Part shown: piece after piece, positions 55,485 through 63,661 of the stretch
How the letters are laid out: each line of letters begins with the position of its first letter
Position numbering within the stretch: the first letter of the stretch is position 1
Origin: Asticcacaulis machinosus
GTDB taxonomy: Bacteria; Pseudomonadota; Alphaproteobacteria; Caulobacterales; Caulobacteraceae
Reading direction: 5' to 3'
Assembly: GCF_028550435.1 (NCBI RefSeq)
Contig: NZ_JAQQKV010000001.1
Span: 434,001-498,000 of the forward strand
Length of the DNA stretch: 64,000 nucleotides
Translations under genes and position numbers: made by a program
Notes under the pieces: generated by a model
Database searches by the model: none
Seen by the model: only the letters and a program-made list of their open reading frames with translations
Told to the model about the DNA's origin: nothing

Positions 55485-56942
55485 GTGATCGCACCTCTAT
55501 CTCCCAATTCCGTTTCATCCGATTCTCTGGTGAGTGCCGGTCTGGGTGAGATTGATCTCAATGCGGCCCGGATAATTCTCGATAAAGCCCTGACGGGGGC
55601 CGACGACGGGGAAATCTTCTTTGAAACCCGTGAAAGCGAATCTCTGGTTTTTGATGACGGACGCCTCAAAGCCTCTGCATACAATGCGGATCAGGGCTTT
55701 GGTTTTCGCGTCGTCGCAGGCCAAACCATAGGTTTTGCCAACAGTGCCGAGCTATCCTTAAGTGCTCTCGAACGCGCCTCCGAAGCGGCTGTACTAGCCA
55801 AAACAGGCATATCGGTTGATACGGCCATAGTTGCCGCCAATCCACGCCGCTCAAACCAGTCACGCTACAAGGCGGTCGATCCATTATCGGAAATGGCCTT
55901 TGCTGAGAAGATCGCTTTACTGCAAGCCATCGATGCCTATGCCCGCGACAAAAATCCGAATGTCGTCCAGGTATCCGCAAGCCTTGCTGCCGAAAAACGC
56001 GCCATCACTATTTTGCGTGGCCAGGGTGAAGTTTATCATGATTATCGTCCACTCATACGCATCAGCATCAGCGTATCGGTCGAAGCCGGCGGAAAGCGTG
56101 AAAGCGCATCCTCCGGCGGCGGTGGCCGCTATAGCCTGTTTGAGATTACCTCGCCCGAACACTGGCAGGCGCAGGTCGATGAGGCTTTGCGTCAGGCTCT
56201 TGTCAATCTTGATGCCACACCAGCCCCCACCGGCGAAATGGATGTCGTGCTGGGCAATGGCTGGCCCGGTGTTCTGCTGCATGAAGCGGTTGGTCACGGC
56301 CTTGAGGGTGATTTCAACCGTAAAGGCACCTCCGCCTTTTCCGGTAAGATGGGGCAGCAGGTCGCGGCCAAAGGTGTCACAGTCGTCGATGACGGCACCA
56401 TCACCGACGCGCGTGGCTCACTCAATATTGACGACGAAGGCACGCCAACCTCATGCACTACCTTAATTGAAGACGGGATTTTGGTTGGCTACATGCACGA
56501 CCGCTTATCGGCCCGACAGATGGGTGTTGAGGCAACCGGCAATGGGCGGCGTCAATCCTATGCGCACCAACCCTTACCGCGCATGACCAATACCTTCATG
56601 CGCGCCGGTAATGACACTCGCGCCGATATGATTGCTTCCACCAAACGCGGGATTTATGCGGCTAATTTCAGCGGCGGGCAGGTCGATATCACCAACGGTA
56701 AATTCGTATTCCAATGCACCGAAGCCTACCTTATCGAAGACGGCAAGGTCACCCGGCCGGTCAAGGGTGCCAGCCTTATCGGTGATGGCCCCGCTGCCAT
56801 GCGCCAGATTGAGATGATAGGCAATGACTTTGCCTTTGATCCGGGAGTCGGTACCTGCGGTAAGGCTGGTCAAAGCGTACCCGTCGGCATTGGCCAGCCC
56901 TCGCTCAAGATCAAAGGCCTTACGGTTGGCGGCACGGGATGA
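55485..56942 (+). CDS. tldD: Metalloprotease TldD
   Basis: A 485-residue TldD that, as a heterodimer with PmbA/TldE, degrades unfolded peptides. The HEAVGHGLEGD zinc-binding motif is at about 265-275. The N-terminal half carries the beta-barrel domain (ATFDDGRLKAS-like). The start is a GTG at 55485 after CAGGAATATCCC. The partner pmbA is not in this window. rnhB overlaps its stop by four bases. Confidence 0.95.
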   Translation: MIAPLSPNSVSSDSLVSAGLGEIDLNAARIILDKALTGADDGEIFFETRESESLVFDDGRLKASAYNADQGFGFRVVAGQTIGFANSAELSLSALERASEAAVLAKTGISVDTAIVAANPRRSNQSRYKAVDPLSEMAFAEKIALLQAIDAYARDKNPNVVQVSASLAAEKRAITILRGQGEVYHDYRPLIRISISVSVEAGGKRESASSGGGGRYSLFEITSPEHWQAQVDEALRQALVNLDATPAPTGEMDVVLGNGWPGVLLHEAVGHGLEGDFNRKGTSAFSGKMGQQVAAKGVTVVDDGTITDARGSLNIDDEGTPTSCTTLIEDGILVGYMHDRLSARQMGVEATGNGRRQSYAHQPLPRMTNTFMRAGNDTRADMIASTKRGIYAANFSGGQVDITNGKFVFQCTEAYLIEDGKVTRPVKGASLIGDGPAAMRQIEMIGNDFAFDPGVGTCGKAGQSVPVGIGQPSLKIKGLTVGGTG

Positions 56943-57574
56943 TTTGCACCGAATCGGCTATAACCGTGTCCATGCCTGATTTAAGCTTTGAATCTCAATT
57001 GACCGGTTATGTCTGCGGCGTCGATGAAGCTGGCCGCGGCCCGTGCGCGGGCCCACTGTGCGTGGCGGCTGTAATACTGGATCAGGATAATATCCCTGAA
57101 ATGATCCGCGATTCCAAGAAACTTACCGAAAAACAACGTTTCAACATCGAACCTTTGATAAAGCAAAGCGCTTTAGCCTGGAGCGTTGTCGAAGTTTCCT
57201 GCGAGCTGATCGATTGCCTGAACATCCTTCAGGCGACTCTATGGGGCATGGCTGAAGCCGTCGCCCGCCTGCCGCTTAAAGCCGATCACGCCCTTATCGA
57301 TGGCAATCGCGCCCCTATCCTCGGCATCCCAGCCCAGACAATCATTAAGGGCGATGATAGGTCGCTATCAATTGCCGCCGCCTCAATACTCGCCAAAACG
57401 GCCCGCGACCGCATAATGATTGAGATGGATTCCATCTATCCGGCCTATGGTTTCAAAAAGCATAAGGGTTATCAGGCCAAAGCCCATTTAGAGGCGATCA
57501 GCTTACACGGCCCCTCGCCCATCCATCGCCGGTCATGGGCCACCGTGCGAAATCTGGCGACCACAGCCCAATAA
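56939..57574 (+). CDS. rnhB: Ribonuclease HII
   Basis: A 211-residue RNase HII that cleaves RNA-DNA hybrids and misincorporated ribonucleotides. The active-site Asp-Glu pair lies in GVDEAGRGPCAGPL; the later acidic residues are in HALIDGN and TARDRIM. Its ATG overlaps the tldD stop (ATGA). An internal ATG at 56972 would remove 11 residues that are not conserved and may be the true start. It precedes ccrM, as in Caulobacter. Confidence 0.95.
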   Translation: MICTESAITVSMPDLSFESQLTGYVCGVDEAGRGPCAGPLCVAAVILDQDNIPEMIRDSKKLTEKQRFNIEPLIKQSALAWSVVEVSCELIDCLNILQATLWGMAEAVARLPLKADHALIDGNRAPILGIPAQTIIKGDDRSLSIAAASILAKTARDRIMIEMDSIYPAYGFKKHKGYQAKAHLEAISLHGPSPIHRRSWATVRNLATTAQ

Positions 57575-57585
57575 AAGAACAAAAC

Positions 57586-57699
57586 GAATCCAAAAGTGAG
57601 TCTTTCAGGACTCACTCACATAAAAATGATTCGCCTGATTCTCAACGAGTCAAGTTTTCACCTTTTGTTAACCACAAGAGATTCTATTCCTTTGGATTC
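57586..57699. promoter_or_regulatory. Cluster of eight GANTC sites upstream of ccrM
   Basis: GANTC starts at 57586, 57598, 57609, 57628, 57637, 57647, 57680 and 57695. Most spacings are near one, two or three helical turns. The sites at 57598 and 57609 form the arms of a hairpin, AGTGAGTC-TTTCAG-GACTCACT (57595-57616). GTTAACCA at 57667-57674 matches a CtrA half-site. All this lies in the gap between rnhB and ccrM, so it is the presumed ccrM control region. Confidence 0.8.
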
Positions 57700-57734
57700 A
57701 GAGCATTACATTCGTGCTCTCATTTGACCCATAA

Positions 57735-58865
<1,131 letters not shown>

Positions 58866-62203: not shown

Positions 62204-62312
62204 TCTCGCCTTACACAGGCTTAAGAAGTAAGGCTGCATGCGGAATCAGCTATTGATCCCAAGCGGCTATAATACCCATCCCCGATTTCCGTTGCTACAC
62301 GTGGTGTCATAT

Positions 62313-62933
62313 ATGTCTATGAACTTTGGAAAATTCCTGACCGTGGCCACCCTTGGTCTGGGCCTGATGGTGTCTGCCTGCTCAAAAGGCGGGGATGCAG
62401 TTAAGTCAGATGACATGGTGCTGGGGTCCGAAACGGCACCGATCACCCTGGTCGAATATGCGTCCGTGACCTGCAGCCACTGTGCGCAGTTTAATGAAAC
62501 CGTATTTCCGGACATCAAGAAAAACTATATTGATACGGGCAAGGTTAAATATATCTTCCGTGAGTTCCTGACGCCGCCCAATGATGTCTCGGCCGCAGGG
62601 GTTTTGCTGGCCCGATGCGCTGGTAAGGACAAATATTTTCAGGTGATCGACTCCGTTATGCGGTCACAGCGGGAAATTTTTGAGACCGGAGATGCCAAAG
62701 GTGTGCTTTTGCGCGTGGCCAAAACGGCTGGCCTGTCGGATGACGATTTCAACAAGTGCGTCACCGACCCCGAAGGCCTGAAGCGTATTAACGCGAACAT
62801 GGAAGCCGCTATCAAAGAACACAATATCACCGGCACCCCCACCTTCCTGATCAACGGCAAGAAGTACGATTATAAAGGCGGCGACATCAAAGAATTCGAC
62901 GCAGCCTTTGCCGCAGCATCGCCTGCTAAATAG
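62313..62933 (+). CDS. DsbA family thiol oxidoreductase, lipoprotein
   Basis: A 206-residue thioredoxin-fold protein. The signal ends in the lipobox MVSAC (Cys18 counted from the ATG at 62313). The active site CSHC is in YASVTCSHCAQF, and the cis-Pro segment is GTPTFLING. This is the DsbA/BdbD-like type that introduces disulphides in the periplasm. The longer frame from 62238 has no signal-like start. A second, related gene follows 17 bases downstream. Confidence 0.92.
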   Translation: MSMNFGKFLTVATLGLGLMVSACSKGGDAVKSDDMVLGSETAPITLVEYASVTCSHCAQFNETVFPDIKKNYIDTGKVKYIFREFLTPPNDVSAAGVLLARCAGKDKYFQVIDSVMRSQREIFETGDAKGVLLRVAKTAGLSDDDFNKCVTDPEGLKRINANMEAAIKEHNITGTPTFLINGKKYDYKGGDIKEFDAAFAAASPAK

Positions 62934-62950
62934 ATCGTTCAATAGCTTCG

Positions 62951-63661
62951 ATGATGAAACTGCCGCACATAGACATACTCAAGGCGCGTAATCTCAGAGG
63001 GCTGGTGCTTCGCTGCGCCCTTGGGCTTACGGCAGGGTTTGCGGTAGTGGCGCCCATATCATTGTACGCGCAAAACAAGGCCGCCTCTCAGGCCGAACTC
63101 CCTGAGATGTTCAAAGGCAACCCCAAGGCCCCTGTCGAAGTCATTCAATACGCGTCCGCCACCTGCTCGCACTGCGCGCATTGGCATACATCGGTCTGGC
63201 CAGAGTTTGAAAAAAAGTACGTCAAAACCGGCAAGGTCAAGTTCACGTTCCGGGAAGTGGCGACGCAACCGGCTAATGTAGCCTTTGGGGTCTACATGGT
63301 CGGGCGGTGCGCCGCCGCCAAACCACCCGCCAAAATGACGGCGTCTACAGCTTATTTCACGGTTGTCGACGGCTTCCTGAAAGATCAGGCTAAGGTCGCC
63401 CAGAGCGGCGACGCCCTGACTGAGATTAAAACTCTGGCCGCGCGTGTCGGTATGGATGATGCGGCGCTGGACACCTGCCTTAAGGACGAGGCGCTGTTTC
63501 AAAAGGTTCGTGATCGCATGGAGAAAACCATGCAGGCCAATAAGGTCGAAGGCACACCAACCTTCTTCGTAAATGGTGTGCGCCTTGACGGTGAAACAGA
63601 CCTGAAAGATTTTGACGCCGCCATTGCCGCCGCGCAAAAACCGAAAAAGAAATCATCTTAA
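62951..63661 (+). CDS. DsbA family thiol oxidoreductase
   Basis: A 236-residue relative of the preceding protein. A long basic N-terminus precedes a hydrophobic segment (about 18-38) that acts as a signal peptide (ending near SLYAQ), with no lipobox. CSHC is in YASATCSHCAHW; the cis-Pro segment is GTPTFFVNG. An insertion after VGRCAA distinguishes it from the first copy. The pair looks like a diverged tandem duplication, one lipid-anchored and one soluble. smc begins three bases downstream. Confidence 0.93.
   Translation: MMKLPHIDILKARNLRGLVLRCALGLTAGFAVVAPISLYAQNKAASQAELPEMFKGNPKAPVEVIQYASATCSHCAHWHTSVWPEFEKKYVKTGKVKFTFREVATQPANVAFGVYMVGRCAAAKPPAKMTASTAYFTVVDGFLKDQAKVAQSGDALTEIKTLAARVGMDDAALDTCLKDEALFQKVRDRMEKTMQANKVEGTPTFFVNGVRLDGETDLKDFDAAIAAAQKPKKKSS

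Follow-up and report, generated by a model that had tools for sequence, protein, structure and literature searches.

An eight-site GANTC array upstream of ccrM in Asticcacaulis machinosus is consistent with a methylation-sensitive, CtrA-linked promoter

Results

The ccrM locus and its GANTC array

The window, the whole stretch of 64,000 nt that was analysed, corresponds to positions 434001-498000 of contig C1 of the Asticcacaulis machinosus genome (G000; 3.77 Mb in 10 contigs). On its forward strand, rnhB, encoding ribonuclease HII (56939-57574; NCBIfam PRK00015 models and Pfam RNase_HII, 142 bits), is followed by ccrM, encoding the GANTC adenine methyltransferase (57744-58865; N6_N4_Mtase and RAMA domains). 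Residues 21-373 of CcrM match the solved CcrM structure 6pbd with 634 bits, the score against NCBIfam model NF050803 is 626 bits, under the 830 cut-off of that model, and the five nearest relatives among named records are all from Asticcacaulis, with 84-90% protein identity. Judged from the structural match and the Pfam domains, the gene driven by the putative array promoter is a CcrM orthologue. Over the window, Rfam models at gathering thresholds detect only two tRNAs, and toward the 3' side two adjacent genes (62238-63661) look, by eye, like secreted proteins of the thioredoxin/DsbA type.

Between the stop codon of rnhB at 57574 and the ATG of ccrM at 57744 lie eight GANTC sites in 114 bases (57586-57699), as a sequence-only reading had stated and as the site positions bear out (starts at 57586, 57598, 57609, 57628, 57637, 57647, 57680, and 57695). 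We aligned the array across the genus using 30 loci (25 genomes plus five named records), which amount to 25 distinct sequences. Site 1 (GAATC, 57586-57590), located within AACAAAACGAATC and 3' of AACAAAAC, is intact in 19 of the 25. The next two sites, 2 and 3, are arranged as a perfect dyad, AGTGAGTC-N6-GACTCACT (57595-57616), and are intact in 23 and 25 sequences, respectively. The dyad core, TGAGTC-N6-GACTCA, occurs once in the 2.464 Mb of the source genome that were scanned; its inner form, GAGTC-N6-GACTC, is shared by 7 of 17 Caulobacter loci, likewise before ccrM, and was not found in the 450 bp preceding ccrM in Brevundimonas or Phenylobacterium loci. Sites 4, 5, and 6 follow at distances of 9 and 10 bases from one another. 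Site 4 (GATTC, 57628-57632) has a variable central base in relatives and is intact at the aligned place in 17 of 25, site 5 (GATTC, 57637-57641) is invariant (25/25), and site 6 (GAGTC, 57647-57651; intact in 19/25, with G, T, or A in the central-base column) ends just 5' of a CtrA-type box. Site 7 (GATTC, 57680-57684; intact in 22/25) abuts a predicted -10 box, TATTCC (57685-57690). Site 8 (GATTC, 57695-57699) falls on the predicted transcription start, and its count of 12 of 25 at the aligned place is too low because alignment gaps split the site.

The CtrA-like half-site that had been noticed, TTAACC at 57668, holds up and is part of a nearly full box, TTCA-N7-TTAA (57657-57671); the full form, TTAA-N7-TTAA, is present within the 220 bp preceding ccrM in 10 of the 25 Asticcacaulis genomes. 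By sequence, the ccrM promoter thus carries a candidate CtrA box. In ctrA promoter P2 of C. crescentus, the CtrA box is described at -39 (PMC4287350), and if the same distance applies, transcription of ccrM is predicted to start near 57696. This start falls on site 8 and therefore leaves seven sites upstream. Single-sequence RNA folds predict a hairpin in the leader on the forward strand (57700-57720). Hairpins of differing sequence are also predicted at a similar place in several relatives, perhaps reflecting a conserved 5' UTR structure.

Spacings between successive sites are 12, 11, 19, 9, 10, 33, and 15 bases, and it had been proposed that most lie near whole helical turns. Phasing is detected at 10.5 bp (p = 0.035) but weakens when periods of 10, 10.5, and 11 bp are all allowed (p = 0.10), and a comparable array upstream of ctrA, described below, shows none (p = 0.29 and 0.41). 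Two related, non-independent ccrM arrays phase more strongly (p = 0.001-0.05, depending on the test). Helical phasing of the ccrM array is only suggestive.

Density relative to a depleted background

The base composition of the ccrM-rnhB intergenic region itself predicts 0.55 GANTC sites, versus the eight observed. The surrounding DNA is poor in the motif: the window has 109 sites in total, whereas 100 dinucleotide-shuffled versions of it average 230, so that the background is depleted, and the source genome avoids GANTC more generally (3692 observed versus about 9578 expected under a first-order model). The genome scan covered 2.464 Mb (65.3% of the assembly) and joined sites separated by gaps of up to 50 bp into chains. 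It yielded 3106 singletons, 251 pairs, 16 triples, 5 quadruples, and two chains of eight, which are the only chains exceeding four sites: the ccrM array and a set of eight sites upstream of ctrA. Eight is also the maximum for any 114-bp window starting at a site. The ccrM array is far from what chance would produce. An abundance of comparable intergenic clusters, which had been named as the finding that would speak against a special role, was sought in this 65% of the genome and not found.

Conservation within Asticcacaulis

All 25 Asticcacaulis genomes searched have 4-8 GANTC sites within 250 bp before ccrM (seven sites in twelve genomes, eight in seven, six in four, and five and four in one each; where the start codon of ccrM is uncertain, as in a few genomes, distance is counted from the first matched residue). 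The 25 distinct sequences align with a single order of sites and conserved spacing. Compared with the window, the GA/TC bases are 87.5% identical, the central bases 81%, and the bases between sites 64%, and a core identity of 87.5% is reached by only 3 of 20000 random eight-site masks. The central base is fixed at sites 2, 3, and 5 where these are intact; at sites 4, 6, and 7, it varies and the GA/TC bases are mostly kept. In four loci (L086, L088, L089, and L091), 11 extra bases are inserted between site 4 and site 5; in three of them (L088, L089, and L091), the insertion contributes, in comparison with L093, an additional GANTC roughly one helical turn away. The array also remains with ccrM where the neighboring gene is distant. 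rnhB is detected within the locus in 24 of the 25 genomes and not found in one, and in 8 of 25 its end lies 626-1331 bp from ccrM, yet the array still adjoins ccrM. The array looks selected.

A second array at ctrA

The other chain of eight sites is located at C2:63703-63832 (L174:3703-3832), upstream of a gene identified as ctrA by the NCBIfam CtrA model NF045991 (407 bits; cut-off of 350). Across the genus, ctrA is preceded by 3 to 9 GANTC in 300 bp, and 24 of 25 genomes have four or more. In a set of 30 other Caulobacteraceae genomes, picked from 75 non-Asticcacaulis loci of the family, at least four sites are found in 300 bp before ctrA in 22; among the 11 Caulobacter in this set, six have one or two. 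At the level of the class, the pattern differs from that of ccrM: in the same 20 genomes drawn from across the class, at least four GANTC within 130 bp occur before ctrA in only one versus 13 for ccrM, and near sites number 22 for ctrA versus 96 for ccrM. Clusters at ctrA therefore looked biased toward Caulobacteraceae. A core of GACTC-N2-GACTC-N8-GATTCgcaaatca recurs before ctrA in many Asticcacaulis and in at least one Brevundimonas region (L289), and three Caulobacter ctrA regions (L263, L265, and L266) retain GATTCgcaaatca alone.

Other cell-cycle genes of the source genome have few sites in the upstream 300 bp, with none for dnaA, three for gcrA, and one for an ftsZ-like gene, the starts of dnaA and the ftsZ-like gene being mechanical open reading frame starts. 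Arrays are therefore no general mark of methylation-linked cell-cycle genes. Two FtsZ-family matches score above cut-off in this genome (G000:C4:72206-73168 and C1:743836-744783).

ccrM promoters across Alphaproteobacteria

A ccrM match (E 1e-60) is present in 133 of 190 Alphaproteobacteria genomes, and upstream regions were compared for 60 of the 133 (56 family labels), a non-random choice consisting of 40 top-scoring and 20 lower-scoring genomes. Half of these genomes (30/60; 23/40 in the first set and 7/20 in the second) have four or more GANTC in the 130 bp preceding ccrM, and three have none in 300 bp. Summed over the 60, 232 sites fall between -250 and -1 versus 18 between -500 and -251, with part of this contrast attributable to coding depletion, because the farther interval is often coding sequence, where GANTC is depleted anyway.

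Sites in these regions are also positioned relative to the core promoter. In 30 of the 60 (L321-L360 and L364-L383), a GANTC starts at +19 from TTGAC, a place that adjoins the -10 box expected at a 17-base spacing; across 1000 rotations of the sites, this count averages 1.2 and reaches at most 6. In all 30, A stands at +24 and T at +28 beyond the site, giving TTGAC-N14-GAMTCA-N3-T, and the central base of the site (+21) is C in 24 cases and A in the remaining 6. A further GANTC starts at +7 to +10 in 25 of the 30 and at -15 in nine. The corresponding pattern TTGAC-N14-GANTCA-N3-T is absent from the 2.464 Mb of the source genome scanned, ccrM included. At ccrM of A. machinosus, a GANTC abuts the predicted -10 box, while the CtrA-type box occupies the -35 region, and site 7 may be likened to the GANTC found at the -10 box across the class.

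Among 75 other Caulobacteraceae, the maximum within 130 bp of ccrM is four GANTC (7/75), and five have none. In 31 of the 75, a GANTC lies 11 bases after a half-site of the TTAAC or CTAAC type; the distance for site 7 is 12 bases. GANTC clusters before ccrM are widespread in the class, with Caulobacter and Brevundimonas at the low end. The expanded methylation-sensing switch that the sequence-only reading had suggested thus survives in part. Conservation in the genus, a CtrA-type box, and the status of the array as one of only two clusters of this kind in the scanned 65% of the genome make a methylation-sensing switch the natural reading, but with clusters in half of the regions compared class-wide (30/60), a claim that it is special to this organism is not supported.

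Discussion

We consider it probable that the array is a selected, methylation-sensitive, CtrA-linked autoregulatory promoter of ccrM. This proposal is based on the observed sites themselves, on how densely they are packed, how well they are conserved, and where they lie, and on the presence of another array at ctrA. CtrA would bind at 57657-57671 and activate transcription from near 57696, in a promoter with GANTC sites on both sides of the CtrA box, directly next to the -10 box, and on the predicted start. Passage of the replication fork would leave all eight sites hemimethylated and the promoter permissive, and newly made CcrM would then remethylate the sites and shut the promoter off. With several sites, shut-off may require many methylation events and define a sharper or longer window of expression than one or two sites could. 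CcrM is described as methylating one site per binding event (PMC10073500), and several sites would therefore be expected to delay full methylation. What the proposal does not account for is the fixed central base at sites 2, 3, and 5, which exceeds what methylation alone needs.

By analogy with ccrM of C. crescentus and gcrA of Agrobacterium tumefaciens, methylation is more likely to repress than to activate the promoter. For the former, it is reported that CtrA activates expression from hemimethylated DNA toward the end of the cell cycle and that remethylation shuts it off (PMC2217572; PMC10073500). The gcrA promoter region of A. tumefaciens, which has six GANTC sites, is reported to be less active when methylated, also in Escherichia coli supplied with CcrM (PMC11514494), suggesting that a cluster, once methylated, can exert its effect even where alphaproteobacterial regulators are missing.

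The main rival concerns this sign. It is known that GcrA activates some promoters carrying methylated GANTC, and because of this the sign could be the opposite, with methylated sites serving as a platform that recruits GcrA and the housekeeping sigma factor to activate ccrM. gcrA matches are present in 24 of 25 genus genomes (G000:C2:187439-187936 in the source genome; PF07750), and site 7 sits between the CtrA box and the -10 box. However, the one genome without a GcrA match (G004; 99% complete) nevertheless has seven GANTC before ccrM (L093). Sites 2, 4, and 5 fit YGAKTCK, a form of the GcrA-related motif quoted in PMC7987155, but all three lie upstream of the CtrA box and thus outside the -35/-10 region considered for GcrA, and the other five sites, including site 7 (AGATTCT), do not fit on either strand. 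The motif may be no strict requirement, because little preference for this extended form is described for Brevundimonas subvibrioides (PMC7987155). The account of C. crescentus ccrM as driven by CtrA from hemimethylated DNA (PMC2217572) also argues against a GcrA platform, and we judge it unlikely. Somewhat less doubtful, and able to coexist with an autoregulatory promoter, is that the dyad TGAGTC-N6-GACTCA is the operator of some dyad-binding regulator to which methylation is secondary. The central bases of the dyad are fixed in the genus, its core is single in the scanned part of the genome, and 7 of 17 Caulobacter loci have its inner form. Nonetheless, an operator would cover only two of eight sites, and the dyad was not seen in the other 10 Caulobacter loci or within 450 bp in those of Brevundimonas and Phenylobacterium.

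Two further explanations dispense with methylation as the reason for the array. Conserved GANTC could mainly be sigma-factor contacts at the -10 box or intergenic background. The class-wide placement of the +19 GANTC against the -10 box is compatible with such contacts, and for repABC of A. tumefaciens, the authors state that some GANTC may be plain core promoter sequence (PMC11514494). But contact with sigma would cover one or two sites only, intergenic GANTC are reported to be on average just over 1.5-fold over-represented (PMC3973325), and the other sites are conserved despite a changing central base; we find this explanation improbable. Still more so, to the point that we reject it, is that the array is a transcription terminator or stem-loop of rnhB. 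The dyad can pair, and the fold of the 169-nt region is more stable than those of its shuffled versions (z = -4.2), a score that is inflated because repeated GANTC is self-complementary. On the rnhB strand no T-run follows the dyad, and the array stays at ccrM in the 8 of 25 genomes where rnhB ends far away. An RNA element is rejected as well, the Rfam models having detected nothing in the window besides the two tRNAs.

Taking the class-wide and local patterns together, we offer, as a reading with even prospects of being right or wrong, that in much of Alphaproteobacteria the target of CcrM is fused to the -10 box of ccrM (TTGAC-N14-GAMTCA-N3-T), in most cases accompanied by another GANTC within the spacer and in many by additional sites farther upstream. 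On this reading, autoregulation by methylation would be an ancestral trait that resides in the core promoter itself. Caulobacteraceae would have put a CtrA box at -35, Asticcacaulis would have retained the array and built it up further, and C. crescentus, whose few sites are located near the start in the leader, would be a derived exception.

In the part of the open-access literature covered here, methylation control of ccrM is so far discussed from Caulobacter with its two sites, and no account of class-wide GANTC clusters before ccrM was found. Our comparisons suggest that clusters of sites are common among Alphaproteobacteria, with one site locked to the -10 box in many families, and that the two densest clusters found in the source genome (65% scanned) mark two feedback hubs, ccrM and ctrA. 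The presence of similar clusters in many relatives suggests that self-switching of CcrM is old and widespread. Such arrays also allow one to ask whether the number of sites sets the sharpness of a methylation clock.

Among known systems, the ccrM promoter of C. crescentus is the closest: the gene is the same, and both promoters have a CtrA-type box and GANTC near the start. The two GANTC sites of C. crescentus ccrM are said, by the 1995 account of Stephens, to lie in the transcribed leader. In A. machinosus, unlike in C. crescentus, sites flank the CtrA box and abut the -10 box, with seven upstream of the predicted start. The number also differs, as the C. crescentus promoter is described as CtrA-activated with two GANTC (PMC10073500) and A. 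machinosus has eight. Loci L064 and L068 of C. vibrioides share GAGTC-N6-GACTC upstream of ccrM with the array described here, and L068 has four sites within 96 bp. Promoters are reported to have on average 0.4-1.5 GANTC per 500 bp, with no control derivable from the richer ones (PMC2877005). The gcrA region of A. tumefaciens, with six GANTC in 250 bp and lower activity when methylated in that species (PMC11514494), is likewise a dense cluster at a cell-cycle hub, although the gene is not ccrM. Promoter P1 of C. crescentus ctrA, for which a GANTC near -29 is described (PMC4287350), is similar in being a methylation-sensitive promoter of a hub gene, and the ctrA region of A. machinosus has eight sites as well; P1 differs from the ccrM array in the gene it serves and in the layout of its sites.
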